A stretch of 29,562 nt of DNA from a virus. The translations under genes and the position numbers were made by a program. Under the pieces are notes generated by a model. The model made no database searches. It worked only from the letters and a program-made list of their open reading frames with translations, and was not told where the DNA came from. How positions within the stretch are numbered: position 1 is the stretch's first letter; the number at the start of each line of letters is the position of its first letter. Where the stretch lies: IMG/VR virus record IMGVR_UViG_3300045993_000710, positions 1 to 29,562 of that record. The stretch is one strand, 5' to 3'. Below are positions 8,060 through 18,173 of this stretch, one piece after another.

Positions 8060-11000
8060 ATGCTCAATACCAACGCCAACTACCGCGCACAAAACAACGG
8101 CCTGACCAAATGGCCAGTATATGTTGCCAAGCTTTTTTTCAATGGCGGCAAAGACGGTACACCGGGCACGAATGATATTTATTTCGCTACCTGCGATGTG
8201 AATAACATTGCCAATTTCCCCTATCCGACACACTGGTTCCCGGTACTCAAATCCGATTCAATCAGCTCGATGTCGCAACAAGTCGACCCGATCAATGGCG
8301 TATCAACGATTGGCAATATCACCCTGACCGTGACCGATTATCAGGGCTCTGTCTCAGCCATTATTGCCGCCGCCAATAATGCCGGTCACGGCCTGCGTCG
8401 GCAGCGCTTGAGCATTTACAAAATGTTCCAGGGTATGGATTGGGCTGATCGCGTGTTGGTGCGCACCATGCAGATTCAAGACTTAAAACTTTCAGCCCTG
8501 AATGAATACACCATCACCGCAGCAGACGTGCAAAAGCGTTTGCAAAAAACCATCTTTAACCCGGCGGCAACGGTCACGAGTGCCACTATTGCAGCCTCTG
8601 GCGCAGTCACTTTTGCAGTGGACAATGCGCGCAAATTTTTACTCTCAACCTCAGTTACGTATGGAACAAGCGGATTTATACAGATAGACAGTGAGATTAT
8701 GCGCTGGACTGTTGCATCTATCAGTAGCTTCACTGTTGCCGCAGTTGATCGCGGGATACTCGGAACCACAGCCGCCGCGCACGCCGTAAATGCCAACGTA
8801 ACCGAAGTGATTTATCTGAACGAAAACCCGATCACCATGGCGCTGAAGCTCATGGAATCTTCCGGTACCGCCCTGGCGAATGGCGCTTATGATGCCTACC
8901 CGGCGCACTGGGGTTGCGGTATGGATAGCACCAATGACGTAATGGAAGCGGATTGGCTGCAAGTCGGCCAGCTGCTTACCGGGCTATCAGCCGTTACCCC
9001 GCTGCCTGCGAATGGCCTACAATTCGAGTTTGTGATTAACAAAGGCATTGTCGCGAAAAAGTTCATCGAGGACTCAATACTAAAAATATTAGGGGCTTTT
9101 GGCTTTGTGCGCGGCGATGGCAAATATTCGATTCGCGCCTACAACGATATTTCAAACGCCATTAAAGAAAATTGTGCCATTCAGCTCACCCGCGATAACG
9201 TCACGCTCTGGGGTGATTTGAATTACAACTATCCTTCCCTGGCAAACCAGCTCCAAATTAATTATGACGAAGAACCAAAATTGTCGGGTAAATATATCCG
9301 CTCAACACTTTTTATTGATGCCGCCTCAGTTAAAAAATGGGGCGATGCACCGCAATTAAGCTACAACGCGCAGGGCGTACCGCCTACCTCAGTTTTTATC
9401 AAGCAGCTATACCAGCGGTTCCAGCGTGTGCTGGCGCGCTATTCGCGTCCACCTATGCAAATATCGCTTACGTTAATGCCCAAGCTGAATACACTGGAAA
9501 TTGGCGACATGGTGCGTGTCACGTTGCCGATCCGTGATTTAGTCACCGGCCTGACACTGGATCGTGCGTTTGAAGTGCTCTCGACCCAGCTCACACCCAT
9601 GACCGGTGAAATTGTCATTCAATGTATTGCGCAGCCAGAAAAAGCCAATTTCTGGTTTCAAGGGGTTGGCAATGTTGCATCCTTGGCGATTTCTCCAGCT
9701 GCCTCTAGCATACCAACGGGCGGCACCTTGCAATTTACCGCACGCGGCTTTGATGCCAACGGCACACAACTGCCTATTTTATCGTTGTCTTGGGTAGCGA
9801 CGGGTAATTTAACCGTCAGCAGCACCGGCCTTGTTACCGCAGGCTCAGTCGGCACAGGCACGATAATCGCGATTGTGGGCAGCATTCAATCCAATGTCGC
9901 AACCGTGACGGTTACCGCAGCCGCCTTTACTGGCACCGTGGCCTCTGTGGTCATTTCACCTTCTATTGTCAATATCGCGGCCACAAAAACGCAACAACTA
10001 GCGGCCATCGCTTACGATATTTCCAGCAATCAAATTAACAATAAAGTGTTTAATTGGGCCTCTAGCAATACCGGTGTTGCAACAGTACCCGCCGGACCCA
10101 GTGCAGCCGCTATCGTAACCGGCATCGCAAACGGCACAGCCAATATCACTGCAACCGAAACTGTTTCCAGTATTGCTTCCCCGGCTTGCGCGGTCACGAT
10201 TGGTGATGCAGAAATACCCACTTATACACCCCCTTTTTTGGCAGATTCGGCCTATCAGATTGGTACAAAAATAACCAGCATGGGGGGCACAGGCGGGCCG
10301 CATACCATTCCAAATGGCTACAATTTTGTCAGCGGTGACTATTGGTTTGATGGCAACGTGACTTTGCCACTCGGCAGCACCTGCACAATTAACGGAACCG
10401 TCAGAATATTTTCCCTGGGAAATATCACGATCAACGGACTAATTGACGGGGCAGGGCGCGGTATTAACCCTAACGCAACAGCAATTCAAGCCAGTTCAAA
10501 TAGCATCACCTGGGTGGGCGCGAATGCGACAACAGCAGGCTTTATCGGCAGCGGTGGCAATGGCGGCACCGCAAACATCACCTCGGTTGGTAATGCGCAA
10601 GTCAAGGCAGACGCTAATAATATGAGCGGTTTTACTCAAAAATACGCCATGGATTTATATGTTCTAGTACAGCAACTTTCAGGCATAAAAAACGGCTATA
10701 ACCTCAGCCAGTCTACAATTTGCACAGGCAACAATGGCCTTGGTAGTCAATCGATTTATCAAGCCAAGCCAGAATTATCAATCATTGGTACCACAACAAG
10801 CGGCGGCTCCTGGACCGCAGTATCTGGCCTGCCAGCAATACTTTACGGCTCTCAATCAGCAAATGGCACCTATTCCCACGTAAGCCGATTCGACAATATG
10901 AATTCCCCTGATGGAATTGGATATATCTGGAATATTCAACAAGGTGACGGTTACTCACCCGGATATGAAGGCCTCGGCGGAAAATCAGGTGCAGGGCTAT

Positions 11001-11386
11001 TGTTAATGGGCAGAGGCTTGTATGTCACAACCGGAAGAATAAATCTAAACGGAAATAACGGCACCGATGGCGTACTCGTGGGGAATGCCGGGTTTTCAGG
11101 TGGAGGCGGCGGTGGCGGTGGTGGCTCTTTTATTGGATTAGCCGAACGCGACATCAACGGATTGCCGTCAATGGCTGTTTGGCAGACTCAGATCAATGTT
11201 TCAGGCGGTTCAGCGGGATTAGCCTCTATCAGATCCAGCGCGCTCGTATCCTGGGCTTTCACTTTTATATCAGCCGCATGGGATTGGACTGTGTTAGGTA
11301 CAGCAACAGTCACCAATACCACCAATTCAGCTATAGATGCCACCCCTGGCGGCTCCGGCGCAATCATCACCCAAGTAATCGGCTAA
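8060..11386 (+). CDS. Large tail tip hub / adhesin with Ig-like domains and a glycine-rich tip
   Basis: The 1108-residue protein follows the distal-tail gene by 1 bp. Residues 1-530 resemble a tail hub: strands, DRVLVRTMQIQDLKLS, and ALNEYTITAADVQKRLQK. Two bacterial Ig-like (BIG2-type) domains follow at about 535-625 (VASLAISPAASSIPTGG) and 632-720 (VASVVISPSIVNI, with VFNWASSNTGVATV). The C-terminal ~390 residues hold a carbohydrate-binding-like or beta-helical region and end with a run of nine glycines, GGSFIG and a hydrophobic cap. The layout suggests a baseplate hub fused to a host-contact tip. The fibre gene that follows is the DGR target. Confidence 0.8.
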   Translation: MLNTNANYRAQNNGLTKWPVYVAKLFFNGGKDGTPGTNDIYFATCDVNNIANFPYPTHWFPVLKSDSISSMSQQVDPINGVSTIGNITLTVTDYQGSVSAIIAAANNAGHGLRRQRLSIYKMFQGMDWADRVLVRTMQIQDLKLSALNEYTITAADVQKRLQKTIFNPAATVTSATIAASGAVTFAVDNARKFLLSTSVTYGTSGFIQIDSEIMRWTVASISSFTVAAVDRGILGTTAAAHAVNANVTEVIYLNENPITMALKLMESSGTALANGAYDAYPAHWGCGMDSTNDVMEADWLQVGQLLTGLSAVTPLPANGLQFEFVINKGIVAKKFIEDSILKILGAFGFVRGDGKYSIRAYNDISNAIKENCAIQLTRDNVTLWGDLNYNYPSLANQLQINYDEEPKLSGKYIRSTLFIDAASVKKWGDAPQLSYNAQGVPPTSVFIKQLYQRFQRVLARYSRPPMQISLTLMPKLNTLEIGDMVRVTLPIRDLVTGLTLDRAFEVLSTQLTPMTGEIVIQCIAQPEKANFWFQGVGNVASLAISPAASSIPTGGTLQFTARGFDANGTQLPILSLSWVATGNLTVSSTGLVTAGSVGTGTIIAIVGSIQSNVATVTVTAAAFTGTVASVVISPSIVNIAATKTQQLAAIAYDISSNQINNKVFNWASSNTGVATVPAGPSAAAIVTGIANGTANITATETVSSIASPACAVTIGDAEIPTYTPPFLADSAYQIGTKITSMGGTGGPHTIPNGYNFVSGDYWFDGNVTLPLGSTCTINGTVRIFSLGNITINGLIDGAGRGINPNATAIQASSNSITWVGANATTAGFIGSGGNGGTANITSVGNAQVKADANNMSGFTQKYAMDLYVLVQQLSGIKNGYNLSQSTICTGNNGLGSQSIYQAKPELSIIGTTTSGGSWTAVSGLPAILYGSQSANGTYSHVSRFDNMNSPDGIGYIWNIQQGDGYSPGYEGLGGKSGAGLLLMGRGLYVTTGRINLNGNNGTDGVLVGNAGFSGGGGGGGGGSFIGLAERDINGLPSMAVWQTQINVSGGSAGLASIRSSALVSWAFTFISAAWDWTVLGTATVTNTTNSAIDATPGGSGAIITQVIG

Positions 11387-11400
11387 CAAAAAGGAAAATC

Positions 11401-13065
11401 ATGTCAATCATCTCGCAACTCAAATCCCTCGCAACAGTCCTGTCAGGCGTTAATCTGCGCTCAGTATTAATCAGCGACGCGCAAACCTTCGAAACAGAAA
11501 TAAATCGCTTAGGCGCAGTAGTCGACCCGGTAATTAGTAATAGCAACGTTACCGCGACAAACGTTACCGCGACAAGTATTTCCATCGGCGGCGTTGTTCG
11601 CACATCATGGCCCGCAGCGGGTGGCACAGCCTCAGCACTAAATGATGTAATACAAAATGGTTCAACTGCCAACCTCCCAGCCGCTGCCACCGATTTTACA
11701 ATCAACGATTCATTAGGATCACCGTTGCTTTCAATCAACAAAGCCACCGGGCTACTGTTGGTTTTAGGTAATTCCGCGCTCGATCCCTCGTTGTTTTACA
11801 AACCCTCATCACTTGCGCATGCGTTCACCAAAACAGGCGCAGGCACAATAAGCATTAATGCGGGCACATCCATCATGGTATTCGGAAAAAAAGTAACCTT
11901 TGCCGCGCTGACGGCAATCAGCATGCCAACCCTTGTTGCGGGTACGGATTACGCAATCTATGTATGCACGGACGGCACGATCAGAGCGGATTCAAGTTTT
12001 AGCGCACCCACCGGCTATACCATCGCAAACTCTCGCATGATCGGCGGCTTCCATTACGGGCTGATCGCAGCGGGAACTACAGCTACAGTTGCCAACGGCT
12101 TCAACCCGATTGCATCCACCACACATAACGGCACTACCGCCAGCGCCAGCGCCATCATTACCGGTATCGCTACAACGGCGGATTTAATAGCGGGAATGAA
12201 TGTCAGCGGAACGGGCATTCCACTTTCCGCAACAGGGCAGGGTAACTATATCTTGTCGGTAGACTCTGGCACGCAGATTACTATTTCCACCGCTGCAACC
12301 GCCGCCGGATCGCCGATGTTGACCTTTACCAATACCGGCATGGTGTGGACTCAAACGCTGGTTGACGACATTGCAGGCATTAATAAATATTCAATTTGGG
12401 ATCTACGCTTTCGTCCGAAATCAGATCCGCGCGGCATGGTATTGGTGGACGGGCAGCTCTGGGTTGACATTTATTTATGTTCGTCAGACACCGCTACGAA
12501 CGGAACCAGCAAATACAACACCAATATTGCCTCGGGCACGGTATTGCCAAAAATCCCGGCTGCATTCGGCGGCAATGGAACAGTGACTTATCCAACGTTG
12601 AATTGGTGGGTCGCCAACGAACTGGCCCGCGCCAATCAAAAACGCTTGCTATGGGAAAGTGAGTTTGTTACAGCCATGTTCGGAGTGGCTGAAAATCGCT
12701 CAATTGATGCCGTTGGCACAACATACCCAACTGCCCTGCACATCGGCGGATTAACTAGCAAATATGGCATTGAACAGGCCTCTGGCACACAGTGGATATG
12801 GGGTCAGGATTCTAATTTCTATGCAGAAGTTGCCAGCCCGGCAGGATCATGGAAGGACATCAATAGCAATACTAGTGCCGCAACTTCTGGGCGCGGACAA
12901 ATTTACACGTTTGGTGTTAACGGAATTTCCCGAGTACTCCTGGGCGGCCTCCGCACGGGCGGCTCGATCTCCGGGTCGCGGGCTTCCAACTGGAGCGCCT
13001 ATCCGTGGAGCTCGGGCTGGAACATTGGTTTGCGGGCTGCCTGTGACCACCTGATTTCTGCATAA
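11401..13065 (+). CDS. Tail fibre / receptor-binding protein, DGR target with C-terminal C-type-lectin-like variable domain
   Basis: The 554-residue protein starts at the ATG 14 bp after the hub stop, preceded by AAAGGAAA. A longer frame from 11179 overlaps the hub in a shadow frame and was not used. The N-terminal part (SIISQLKSLATVLSG) resembles fibre attachment regions. The middle has beta-rich repeats. Residues from about 445 (GIEQASGTQWIWGQD) to the end form a C-type lectin/FGE-like fold with the DGR signature GSRASNW followed by PW, ending LRAACDHLISA. The last ~42 codons contain the variable repeat at 12940-13047. The DGR diversifies this domain, which probably binds the host receptor. 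Confidence 0.9.
   Translation: MSIISQLKSLATVLSGVNLRSVLISDAQTFETEINRLGAVVDPVISNSNVTATNVTATSISIGGVVRTSWPAAGGTASALNDVIQNGSTANLPAAATDFTINDSLGSPLLSINKATGLLLVLGNSALDPSLFYKPSSLAHAFTKTGAGTISINAGTSIMVFGKKVTFAALTAISMPTLVAGTDYAIYVCTDGTIRADSSFSAPTGYTIANSRMIGGFHYGLIAAGTTATVANGFNPIASTTHNGTTASASAIITGIATTADLIAGMNVSGTGIPLSATGQGNYILSVDSGTQITISTAATAAGSPMLTFTNTGMVWTQTLVDDIAGINKYSIWDLRFRPKSDPRGMVLVDGQLWVDIYLCSSDTATNGTSKYNTNIASGTVLPKIPAAFGGNGTVTYPTLNWWVANELARANQKRLLWESEFVTAMFGVAENRSIDAVGTTYPTALHIGGLTSKYGIEQASGTQWIWGQDSNFYAEVASPAGSWKDINSNTSAATSGRGQIYTFGVNGISRVLLGGLRTGGSISGSRASNWSAYPWSSGWNIGLRAACDHLISA
12940..13047 (+). repeat. DGR variable repeat (VR)
   Basis: This 108-bp segment aligns without gaps to the template repeat 528 bp downstream. 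Fifteen positions differ and every one corresponds to an adenine in the template; none of the 82 non-adenine positions differ. The substituted codons replace template Asn (AAC) with Leu, Gly, Ser, Ala and others at the lectin surface. The match ends 15 bp before the fibre stop codon. Confidence 0.95.
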
Positions 13066-13085
13066 CGAGCGCAAGCGAGCGCAAG
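13066..13085 (+). repeat. Tandem 10-bp direct repeat just after the target gene
   Basis: Two exact copies of CGAGCGCAAG follow the fibre stop codon immediately, and a third partial copy (CGAG) runs into the avd start. Their place 18 bp after the VR end is where BPP-1-type DGRs carry a hairpin, but here the repeat is direct rather than inverted. Confidence 0.8.
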
Positions 13086-13088
13086 CGA

Positions 13089-13469
13089 GTGGAGACGATA
13101 AGTGACGAATATGCCAGTCAAAAACAACTGGCAATTATAGAAAGGTTTGAAGGATTCATAAATTATATGTATCCGATTGCTCTGAATATTCGACGCACAC
13201 ATTACATCGCGAGAGATCGCCTGATCGCGTCGATGTTCGAGCAAGTCAGTATGTTTTCTCAAGCGGGTAAATCAGGACAAGTCTCTAAGCTGTATCTGGC
13301 TGATGCTGGTTTGTCTGACTTGAGATACATGGTGCGTTTTTTGGCAGATGGCAAGCGCAAATTAATCAGCCGGCATCAATCAGAAGTGAGCAGTATTCAC
13401 CTGGCTGAAACCGGCAAGATGCTAGGCGCTTGGATTAAATCAAAAAACGCAAAGGGTGAACGTGGATAA
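13089..13469 (+). CDS. avd: DGR accessory variability determinant (Avd)
   Basis: The 126-residue protein is read from GTG at 13089. It has the helical pattern of Avd/four-helix-bundle proteins: RFEGFINYMYPIALNIRR, then RDRLIASMFEQVSMF, KLYLADAGLSDLRYMVRFLAD, and the C-terminal HLAETGKMLGAWIKSK. Avd proteins form pentamers that bind the reverse transcriptase and the template RNA and are required for mutagenic retrohoming. The gene lies between VR and TR, and its stop codon overlaps the first two bases of the TR. The start is uncertain because no strong ribosome-binding site precedes the GTG. Confidence 0.88.
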   Translation: METISDEYASQKQLAIIERFEGFINYMYPIALNIRRTHYIARDRLIASMFEQVSMFSQAGKSGQVSKLYLADAGLSDLRYMVRFLADGKRKLISRHQSEVSSIHLAETGKMLGAWIKSKNAKGERG

Positions 13470-13575
13470 AAGCGGCAACCGCACGAACGGCTCGATCTCC
13501 GGGTCGCGGGCTTCCAACTGGAACAACTATCCGTGGAACTCGAACTGGAACATTAGTTTGCGGGCTGCCTGTGAC
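13468..13575 (+). repeat. DGR template repeat (TR)
   Basis: This 108-bp copy of the VR starts inside the avd stop codon and contains 26 adenines. Eight codons are AAC in the frame of the target, the usual DGR design for hypervariable positions. Fifteen adenines differ from the current VR (10 to G, 3 to C, 2 to T). Its order after target and avd and before the reverse transcriptase is the canonical phage DGR layout. Confidence 0.95.
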
Positions 13576-13738
13576 GATAAGTTTTACCCGCACTGAATAG
13601 TTAAGGCTACCAGTGCCGATCATGAGTTTTTATGGTCAGCCACGCCACCCTGCTTCGGCAAATACATGACGGGGTCAAGGGAACGTCGAGTAAGCATTTT
13701 TGAAAGACGCACTTGCAACAGAATTTATAAAGGCAGCA
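13576..13738 (+). ncRNA. Template RNA 3' spacer between TR and reverse transcriptase
   Basis: About 160 bp without an open gene separate TR from the reverse transcriptase start. In the characterised Bordetella phage DGR, the spacer downstream of TR is part of the template RNA and is needed for priming and Avd binding. The same role is inferred here from position. I see no promoter or terminator in it, so TR and reverse transcriptase are probably on one transcript. Confidence 0.5.
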
Positions 13739-14707
13739 ATGGGAAAGAAACATAAAAACTTGATTACGGAAATCGCCAGCATGCCGAACCTATATCGCGC
13801 TTACGAACGCGCGGCAAAGGGCAAACGCTACAGCTGCGGGCATCTGCAATTTAAGCAACACCTGGGCGCGAATCTGCGCATGTTATCGGCCGCACTAAGT
13901 GATGGGTCTTATAAGCCGTCACCCTCTAAGGTATTCTTTGTGCACGAACCCAAAAAACGCCAGATTTCAGCACTACCTTTTGCTGATCGGGTCGTCCAAC
14001 ATGCCCTTTGCGCCGTTATAGAACCAATCTTTGATCGCACCTTCTTGCCAAACAGTTTTGCGTGTCGTAAAGGCCGTGGCACGCACGTTGCCGTGATCGA
14101 GGCACAGGCCACTATGCGCCGGGGTTTTACTCATTGGTTAAAACTGGATTTCTCTAAATATTTTGCCAGCATTGATCGGGTCGTTTTGCACGGTGAAATC
14201 CAACGTAAAATCAGTTGCACGCCAACACTGGCTTTGATTGCGGCTTTTCTGCCAGAAACAGGCAAAGGCTTGCCGATTGGCAACTTAACCAGCCAACTCT
14301 TTGCAAATGTTTACGGGCATATTCTGGATCGCTATTTGACGCACACGCTGCACATCAAAGCATGGCTGCGCTATATGGACGACACAATCATCTTTGCGCA
14401 TAGTCGTGAGGTATTGTCTATCCTACAGGCCGGACTAAAGTGGTTTTGTGAGGCCTCGCTTAGTCTGAAATTTTCTAAATGGAGTATTGGCAAGGTAAGC
14501 CAGGGGCTGGACTGGCTCGGGTATCGTATCTGGCCAACGCATAAATTATTACGCAAACAGTCCGTCATTGCAGCCAAACGCAAGATTTTCAAATACCGGA
14601 CTCATGGCGATGAACTTGCCTTGAGCCGATTCATTGCTTCATGGAAAGGCCATGCGCAGTGGGCGAATTCGTTCAACCTTCTCAACAAACTAGGAATTCC
14701 ATCATGA
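13739..14707 (+). CDS. DGR reverse transcriptase
   Basis: The 322-residue product starts at ATG 13739, with AAAGG 5 bp upstream; a TTG at 13700 would add 13 residues with a weaker site. Reverse transcriptase motifs appear in order: LPFADRVVQHAL (about 79-90), LKLDFSKYFASID with catalytic Asp137, GLPIGNLTSQLFAN (177-190, the IGNLTSQ type characteristic of DGR and retroelement RTs), RYMDDTIIF with Asp214-Asp215, and LDWLGYRIWP. The enzyme copies the TR transcript with adenine-specific errors, and the cDNA replaces the VR. It is compact, with no maturase or endonuclease domain, as is usual for DGRs. Confidence 0.95.
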   Translation: MGKKHKNLITEIASMPNLYRAYERAAKGKRYSCGHLQFKQHLGANLRMLSAALSDGSYKPSPSKVFFVHEPKKRQISALPFADRVVQHALCAVIEPIFDRTFLPNSFACRKGRGTHVAVIEAQATMRRGFTHWLKLDFSKYFASIDRVVLHGEIQRKISCTPTLALIAAFLPETGKGLPIGNLTSQLFANVYGHILDRYLTHTLHIKAWLRYMDDTIIFAHSREVLSILQAGLKWFCEASLSLKFSKWSIGKVSQGLDWLGYRIWPTHKLLRKQSVIAAKRKIFKYRTHGDELALSRFIASWKGHAQWANSFNLLNKLGIPS

Positions 14708-15018
14708 AATATGCCTACAGCCCGCATACGGGCGAATACATCAATACTGAAAATATTGCCGATTGGATGCTAACCACGGACCTCACGCCACCCTCATTCA
14801 ATCCACAAGTGGGTGGGTGTTTTTTTAAAGACGGTGACTGGGTTATTGTTGATGCTGAAACACACCCCACACTCAAAGAAATCGCACTGCAAAAGATTGC
14901 AATGCTTGAGCAATCCGTTACGCAACGGCGTTTGCGTGAAGCAACGCTTTTAACCGATAGCGGCTGGCTGGCAAAGGTGGATAGCCAAATCGCTGAATTG
15001 CGGGGGCAGCTGATATGA
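14704..15018 (+). CDS. Tail fibre assembly / chaperone-like protein
   Basis: The gene overlaps the RT stop (ATGA) and encodes 104 residues. It starts MKYAYSPHTGEYINTENIADWM, like N-termini of tail fibre assembly (Tfa-like) and small fibre-associated proteins, and contains GGCFFKDGDWVIVDAE. A C-terminal helix (about 60-104) is charged and likely coiled. Fibre chaperones usually follow the fibre gene. Here it follows the DGR cassette, so it may have been pushed downstream by the retroelement. The family call is moderate. Confidence 0.65.
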   Translation: MKYAYSPHTGEYINTENIADWMLTTDLTPPSFNPQVGGCFFKDGDWVIVDAETHPTLKEIALQKIAMLEQSVTQRRLREATLLTDSGWLAKVDSQIAELRGQLI

Positions 15019-17014: not shown

Positions 17015-18010
17015 TCACAGTTTTTTAGCCGTATCCTCAGCTGTCTCCCGGTAATAAACCTGCAACTGCTTTAAATCTTTGTGCCCAAGCATTCTGGCCA
17101 ACGAAAGAATATCGATTTTCTTGGCCAGCTGGGTGCAGGCGTTTGCGCGGGTGTCGTGAAAATGCAAATCTTCGGTATCTGCCTTCTCTTTCGCCTTCCT
17201 GAAATTCGAATCCACCTGACTAGCTTTAAGATTAAACACACTGCTGGTGTCAGTCCCTAGCTGCTTCAGCAGCCGAATCGCCTCGGGCGATAGCGGCACA
17301 TCACGCCGGGCTGAAACGGTTTTACCTGCACCAATCTCATCACCTATTACTCTGCAATGCAGTTTGTCCAGGAATACATCCCCCCAGGTTAATGCGCATA
17401 TTTCACCCACGCGCATTCCCGTTTCGATTGCGAATAACATCGCCGTGGCTATTTTTGCGTTTATCGTCACCGGCGTAGTTTCCAGATCGTACCCCAGCAC
17501 AAACTTGAGCTTTTCAATTTCCTCCGGCAACAGCAGCCGGTCCCGTGCCCGATTCGACTTGGGCATCTTTACACCCTGCAGCGGGTTGTCATGCAGCCAT
17601 TTCAATTCGTCCACCGCAATCGTAAGCACATTAGACAATAGATTGCGCTCACGCTTCACCGACGATCCCGCCAGTGTCTGCAAAGATCGATCCCGCCAAC
17701 TCGCAAAATCAGCCGCACTCAGATCCGCCAACTTTACTTTCGCAATTGGATCGCGCTTAAATTTATTGATGCGCACTACCTCCCAGCGCTCACCCTTTTT
17801 CTTGATCGATACATTTTCAGCATAATAGGTCAGTAAGTCGCCAAACGTTTTATCAGGTATCGCCCCGGCCTTTCCTGCTAAAATGCCCGCCTCGGTTTTG
17901 GTAGCCCAGATTTTGGCCTCGGCTTTGGTGGCGAACACTTTTGTTTTACGGATACCCTTGAGATAAATAAAAACCCGAAATTTGTCCGTGTGTGATTTTA
18001 TGCTGGCCAT
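17015..18010 (-). CDS. int: Tyrosine recombinase integrase
   Basis: The 331-residue product starts at ATG 18010, preceded on the minus strand by AGGAATCACAC; an upstream in-frame start at 18052 adds 14 residues and was rejected. An Arm-binding/SAM-like N-terminal part (1-160) is followed by the catalytic domain. That domain has Arg200 in TGMRVGEICAL, Lys230, His285-Asp-Thr-Arg288, His310 in LGHKDL, and the nucleophile Tyr319 or Tyr320. This set defines a tyrosine recombinase for site-specific integration. The putative attP lies just upstream, and the excisionase gene beyond it. Copies of TGTGTGA upstream may be arm sites. Confidence 0.95.
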   Translation of the reverse strand: MASIKSHTDKFRVFIYLKGIRKTKVFATKAEAKIWATKTEAGILAGKAGAIPDKTFGDLLTYYAENVSIKKKGERWEVVRINKFKRDPIAKVKLADLSAADFASWRDRSLQTLAGSSVKRERNLLSNVLTIAVDELKWLHDNPLQGVKMPKSNRARDRLLLPEEIEKLKFVLGYDLETTPVTINAKIATAMLFAIETGMRVGEICALTWGDVFLDKLHCRVIGDEIGAGKTVSARRDVPLSPEAIRLLKQLGTDTSSVFNLKASQVDSNFRKAKEKADTEDLHFHDTRANACTQLAKKIDILSLARMLGHKDLKQLQVYYRETAEDTAKKL

Positions 18011-18092
18011 GTGTGATTCCTGTGTGAAACGTGAGAGTACCACAACGTGCAATGACGGGAAAGCCCGTTAAATGAGGGGGTCAAATGTGTGA
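17989..18092. repeat. Four direct TGTGTGA repeats, possible integrase arm sites
   Basis: TGTGTGA occurs at 17989-17995, 18010-18016, 18021-18027 and 18086-18092, all in the same orientation, between the start of int and the attP core. Direct repeats spaced like this are typical of integrase arm-binding sites. Binding is an inference. Confidence 0.45.
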
Positions 18093-18104
18093 ATTTTGGA
18101 CAAG

Positions 18105-18138
18105 AAAAAAGCCCGTAACGCTGATTGCTACGGGCTTT
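18105..18138 (-). terminator. Rho-independent terminator for leftward transcripts
   Basis: On the minus strand, AAAGCCCGTA pairs with TACGGGCTTT around an 11-base loop and is followed by a run of T residues (A-run 18105-18110 on the plus strand). It would stop leftward transcripts of the early operon before the integrase gene, separating their regulation. Confidence 0.82.
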
Positions 18139-18152
18139 AGGGGCTATATTGG

Positions 18153-18173
18153 TGGTGCCCGAAAGAGGACTCG
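18153..18173. other. attP: Putative attP core matching a tRNA 3' end
   Basis: The minus strand reads in order a T-loop end CGAGT, T-stem strand CCTCT, acceptor strand TTCGGGC, discriminator A and CCA. This is the 3' end of a tRNA, of the tRNA-Leu kind. The rest of a tRNA is absent: the plus-strand match ends after ACTCG and continues with CTCTATTC. Tyrosine recombinases often use a tRNA 3' end as the crossover core. The segment lies between int and the excisionase gene. Confidence 0.72.

Follow-up and report, generated by a model that had tools for sequence, protein, structure and literature searches.

With high confidence, we interpret the IMG/VR record IMGVR_UViG_3300045993_000710 as carrying a complete and most likely functional diversity-generating retroelement (DGR) of the BPP-1 type in a temperate tailed phage. 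The analysis covered positions 1-29,562 of the record, i.e. all of its 29,562 bases, which are called the window in the following. The original prediction, made from the letters alone, had proposed a complete DGR with the order variable repeat (VR), avd, template repeat (TR), and reverse transcriptase (RT). Avd, an RT, an Mtd-type target, and the RNA family RF03022 were found, and the order is the same as in BPP-1. Two further parts had been absent from the first list, the RF03022 RNA at 13590-13716 and a hairpin directly behind the VR at 13066-13090. The cassette itself is an ordinary, complete BPP-1-type DGR; the specialist interest lies in the class of hairpins to which its post-VR element belongs. 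All features of the cassette described below are on the plus strand.

Two direct repeats of 108 bp are located 528 bp apart (12940-13047 and 13468-13575). They differ at 15 positions, all 15 of them TR adenines (chance 8.8e-12), and the non-A positions are identical without exception (82/82), which reproduces the predicted counts exactly. The view that all 15 differences result from rewriting could be retained for 11 of them. The first four, TR AAAA versus VR CTGG, are within a stretch of the target that encodes Leu-Gly-Gly. Among 14 aligned target proteins, G515 and G516 were invariant and L514 nearly so, and because of the invariant glycines the four differences probably represent a fixed upstream flank outside of the rewritten segment; their interpretation as mutagenesis products was set aside. 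The extent of the repeats is safest taken as 104 bp, with the VR at 12944-13047, a probably conserved flank at 12940-12943, and the TR at 13472-13575 (starting at 13468 if the AAAA run is included). This core has 11 differences, again all at TR adenines (chance 3.2e-9). That an ordinary duplication accumulated differences that clustered on A by chance has a negligible probability; the chance values range from 3e-9 to 9e-12, an RT, Avd, and a DGR RNA adjoin the repeats, and this alternative was already refuted. No second VR was found when both strands of the window were searched.

Relatives were collected from IMG/VR scans, GTDB genomes, genome searches, and BPP-1, yielding 388 records, among them the window and L001, a sub-locus of the window itself. 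A VR/TR pair was present in 316 of the 388 records, and 250 pairs were distinct. Of the TR adenines in these 250 pairs (6477 in all), 3348 differ from the VR, compared to 140 of the 22386 remaining positions. At the IMH-like 3′-end of the window VR (13028-13062; IMH, initiation of mutagenic homing), VR and TR are the same up to 13047 (TTTGCGGGCTGCCTGTGAC) and diverge thereafter, the VR continuing with CACCTGATTTCTGCA and the TR with GATAAGTTTTACCCG, the latter being IMH*-like. In the relatives, VR and TR split at the same point, after a CTGTGAC-like end. The 3′-ends of the two repeats thus appear to have the IMH/IMH* asymmetry.

The avd gene (13089-13469, 126 aa, GTG start codon) matched PF22296 (8e-26) and phrog_3206, and its product is similar to Bbp7 of BPP-1 (4dwl, 1.5e-29) and to Avd in 8ub7 (4.2e-28). 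The RT gene (13739-14707, 322 aa) matched 8ub7 with 2.4e-101, and the protein is 49.8% identical to Brt of BPP-1. The predicted IGNLTSQ and YMDD motifs are both intact and the frame has no stop codons, so that the protein has the xGxxxSQ and YxDD motifs and the uninterrupted frame of a DGR-clade RT. Translation was assigned to start at the ATG at 13739, which yields MGKKHKNL in alignment with MGKRHRNL of Brt; a TTG at 13700, upstream of this conserved start, was rejected. The DGR spacer RNA (Rfam RF03022, Phage_DGR; 13590-13716) is full length and scored 75.5 bits (gathering threshold 50, E 1.4e-12). BPP-1 and eight relatives have RF03022 in the corresponding location.

The target gene (11401-13065, 554 aa) encodes an Mtd homologue that carries the VR in its C-terminal domain. 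The protein matched Mtd domain 2 (PF21916, 3.2e-22), the tail protein family phrog_11262 (4.3e-87), and, using phmmer, solved Mtd structures (1yu4, 1.2e-64) with two segments, residues 91-235 and 324-552. Its layout comprises an N-terminus of its own (about residues 1-130), Mtd domain 2 (141-225), an inserted module (about 237-320), and a C-type-lectin domain (324-552). The matches indicate that domain 2 and the C-terminal C-type-lectin domain are homologous to those of BPP-1 Mtd. The predicted departure from the domain plan of Mtd is therefore restricted to part of the protein: these two domains have been kept, whereas the N-terminal 90-130 or so residues and the insert differ. Residues 1-90, the place of the N-terminal beta-prism in Mtd, had no phmmer match to Mtd, and the insert of about 65-80 residues between the two Mtd-matching segments is also present in the relative L029. 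An AlphaFold model of the target was too poor to be used (mean predicted local distance difference test score, pLDDT, of 41) and was discarded. The cassette of the window illustrates that Mtd-type targets are modular. Taken together, the similarities of Avd (8e-26), RT (50% to Brt), target (1e-64 to Mtd), and spacer RNA (RF03022) strongly support the prediction of a DGR that rewrites a receptor-binding protein of the tail. Two observations were made with targets of relatives. The N-terminus of the L038 target reads like that of Mtd, and L006, L008, and L010 have avd, TR, and RT sequences identical to those of L009 and L011, while the second Mtd domain of the target has diverged, which suggests module exchange directly upstream of the diversified domain.

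The post-VR hairpin (13066-13090) overlaps the avd start codon and is formed by a tandem duplicate of the 10-bp unit CGAGCGCAAG. The two copies (13066-13085) and the following CGAG generate two overlapping hairpins with GCAA loops, 13066-13079 and 13075-13090. Each has two inner Watson-Crick pairs, tandem A.G/G.A pairs, and an outer C-G pair, to which the second hairpin adds a G.T pair; the 14-mer of the G.A hairpin is CGAGCGCAAGCGAG. Nothing like the duplication of CGAGCGCAAG was seen in the relatives whose post-VR sequence was inspected. For phage DGRs, a post-VR element with GC-rich stems of 7-10 bp and GRNA loops has been described, which is required for homing (Guo et al. 2011, PMC3240598). 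These traits are usual but not defining for all DGRs, and the sequence of the stem is free as long as the structure is present (PMC3240598). The hairpin of the window deviates from this description, having a GCAA loop of the GNNA type and a stem of 2 bp, tandem A.G/G.A, and one or two further pairs. We read this deviation as a hairpin variant that does not affect DGR membership, and its stem type is common to 57 of 200 distinct hairpins.

These 200 distinct post-VR regions, the rows of which are related to each other, were selected by a GNNA loop and two Watson-Crick pairs at least 12 nt after the VR, and pairs 3 and 4 were ignored when choosing. At pairs 3 and 4, 128 hairpins have Watson-Crick pairs, 57 have A.G followed by G.A, and 15 have other combinations. 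The background frequency of the A.G/G.A combination was 1.3% of 6025 such sites across the loci, with the true ones included. An artefact of hairpin scoring was rejected, as the pattern persists with pairs 3 and 4 excluded from selection. Both tandem sheared G.A pairs and mini-hairpins with GNNA loops are known for an unusual stability in DNA. Standard DNA parameters were taken to treat tandem G.A pairs as an internal loop, and covariation was therefore used instead of folding. Of the 57 hairpins in the G.A class, 41 have a Watson-Crick pair at pair 5 and a further 11 a T.G pair, and 54 are Watson-Crick at pair 6. These outer positions contain several covarying pair types, which was equalled by none of 2000 shuffles that ignored the kinship of the rows. 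An RT tree with 68 rows required 10 changes between the Watson-Crick and the G.A class, at least 8 of them forced by supported branches, and a single lineage of G.A hairpins was thus rejected; L046 and L051 have nearly the same RT and different hairpin classes. In about nine groups of near-identical contigs with G.A hairpins, the VRs vary almost wholly at TR adenines, and on this evidence G.A-class loci work in nature. In summary, a second recurring architecture is apparent across DGRs, consisting of a GNNA loop, 2 bp, tandem A.G/G.A, and 1-2 covarying bp. No mention of G.A stems was found in the accessible DGR papers, whose descriptions name only Watson-Crick stems of 7-10 bp; as most subscription papers and preprints were outside that search, the class is provisionally regarded as a new part.

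The stems are not symmetric with respect to the strand. At pairs 3-6, the sense strand has 26 G.T versus 6 A.C pairs and 129 A.G versus no C.T pairs, 114 of the 129 being those that define the class. Read from the opposite strand, the G.T and A.G sites would be A.C and C.T. As G.A and G.T are tolerated, while the complementary C.T is absent and A.C is rare, the sense-strand hairpin is the conserved form. On balance, we favor two discrete stem types and, as the working form, a hairpin on the sense strand, to which the complementary DNA (cDNA) anneals, rather than a symmetric cruciform. In the phage, the target functions whichever way it is oriented, as reported by Guo et al. (2011, PMC3240598), who did not decide between hairpin and cruciform, and a 2026 study argues for annealing of the cDNA to a transiently single-stranded target (PMC12875486). 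The G.A class bears on this question and, as a natural class that pairs well only on the sense strand, makes it directly testable. If true, the recognition of DGR target sites in genomes and the design of laboratory systems for protein evolution would change.

The bias towards the sense strand could also reflect an RNA structure instead of a DNA target site, if the hairpin acted in the mRNA and set the translation of avd. All 57 G.A hairpins are at most 40 nt from the next start of an open reading frame (ORF), with a median distance of 3 nt compared to 20 nt for Watson-Crick hairpins, the hairpin of the window overlaps the avd GTG, and RNA would likewise give more G.T than A.C. However, the BPP-1 hairpin is required in the target DNA even when avd-TR-brt is provided in trans, and it works after transfer to a heterologous gene (PMC3240598). 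In addition, Watson-Crick hairpins have been kept in cassettes with a different layout, e.g. L060 and L062. A role in the mRNA is rather unlikely, and a hairpin in the target DNA is the preferred reading.

Judged from the homology to BPP-1, avd, TR, and spacer would be transcribed, and a complex of RT and Avd would use the RF03022 spacer RNA to synthesize cDNA from the TR, with random bases opposite adenines. Being copied from TR RNA, this cDNA would be antisense and would anneal to the sense strand of the VR, with the IMH-like 3′-end and the sense-strand hairpin just past the stop codon of the target gene serving as guides. The cDNA would then replace the VR, and trimers of the Mtd-like tail-tip protein would display new loop residues, leading to a changed receptor specificity. 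By analogy, transcription, homing, and a change of tropism are inferred for the phage of the window.

Relatives gave the clearest picture of activity. L031, L032, L034, and L036 share one TR, their VRs differ at 6-15 sites, all TR adenines, and not a single difference was found across the 414 bp that separate VR from TR. Similarly, L006, L007, and L009 have identical TRs and an unchanged VR-TR interval of about 415 bp, and their VRs differ at 7-11 sites, all TR adenines. The RTs of L006, L032, L034, and L036 are 79-81% identical to that of the window. Natural diversification of the VR occurs in close kin of the window. An active switch of host range, as originally predicted, is thus backed by proxy, through the A-only VR diversity of close relatives, and not by a sister contig of the phage itself. 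Activity of the window cassette can be inferred by analogy, and its one sign of its own is the match of VR and TR at the non-A positions: as none of the 82 has drifted, homing was probably recent.

Several observations weigh against a functional DGR in a temperate tailed phage. With standard DNA folding, the hairpin of the window was no better than shuffled sequences (z -0.11), and BPP-1 mutants with shortened stems lost activity (PMC3240598). An IMG/VR search with the TR pattern, A being replaced by N, did not retrieve a near-identical sister of the window phage. Neither capsid nor terminase genes turned up in the set of window proteins examined, and the phage as sampled is therefore probably a fragment. 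The cassette could be a recent relic, with parts that look intact and homing lost, e.g. by degeneration of the hairpin, so that the tail protein would effectively be fixed. Next to the poor folding, this would be in line with losses in the clade. In L035, L039, L049, and L050, a clean junction joins the target directly to the MKYAYSPHTGEY gene, which in the window is located at 14704-15018 (plus strand), behind the RT gene. L043 retains a piece of the 3′-end of the RT gene between these two genes (988-1062), and in L061 (5743-6480), a Sideroxydans metagenome-assembled genome (MAG), a deletion fused avd in frame to the RT C-terminus and the TR is gone. These cases lead us to view the cassette as a discrete unit that can be gained or lost, by which phages may freeze the tail protein. 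In the window, however, every ORF is open, the absence of non-A drift implies recent homing, and the groups of near-identical contigs with the same G.A class vary in the VR almost wholly at TR adenines. A relic is thus very unlikely, and a functional DGR is the favored reading.

The gene content around the cassette points to a temperate tailed phage as the source. The window encodes an integrase (17015-18052, minus strand; PF00589, 1.3e-22) as well as tail genes, lysozyme, a ParB-like protein, and VapE-like and HNH genes. Upstream of the target and outside of the cassette, an 1108-aa tail-associated protein with a Big_2 domain (8060-11386, plus strand; PF02368, 3.8e-08) was found where a multidomain hub had been predicted; the tail protein is there, and the label "hub" is weakly based. 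A megablast search of 22.5 kb against phage records gave no match. RT and tape-measure searches within the family to which the L061-bearing Sideroxydans MAG belongs gave one partial RT match of 69%, which was L061 itself; other RT matches were at 41-50% and tape-measure matches at 28-37%, and no host was assigned on this basis. Beyond the integrase, positions 18102-18173 match L003 (6665-6749) next to a tRNA-Leu (CAG) gene, which is a likely attachment site. The related phage contig L004 contains a match to the RT-15 RNA (Rfam RF03018; 12353-12544, minus strand; 169.7 bits), possibly part of a second reverse-transcriptase system. Positions 567-1703 encode a 378-aa protein with repeated ADLTALAATASSITSASI-like units followed by MSFSQAKRNMSF-like repeats at its end, for which no PHROG match was obtained at a threshold of 0.01.

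The closest described system is the BPP-1 DGR (mtd-avd/bbp7-TR-brt; AY029185), which has the same gene order, an Mtd-type target, and bAvd. Both share RF03022 between TR and RT, RTs that are 50% identical, a VR at the 3′-end of the target, a hairpin just past the stop codon, and A-specific differences. In contrast to BPP-1, the target of the window has another N-terminus and the inserted module of about 65-80 residues, its repeat is 104 bp long compared to the 134 bp annotated in BPP-1, its hairpin is duplicated and contains tandem G.A pairs instead of an 8-bp Watson-Crick stem, and an integrase gene is located downstream of the cassette. Metagenomic DGRs have been catalogued in bulk (Roux et al. 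2021, PMC8144416). Phage DGRs from IMG/VR, e.g. L003, L004, L005, and L032, have RTs that are 81-87% identical to that of the window and the same layout and hairpin class, but they have a single hairpin and other N-terminal target modules. Nanoarchaeal DGRs (PMC4372165) are likewise a described departure from the post-VR hairpin form of BPP-1; their loop is a GRA trinucleotide and lies within the target gene, whereas the window has a GNNA loop on a tandem G.A stem past the stop codon.

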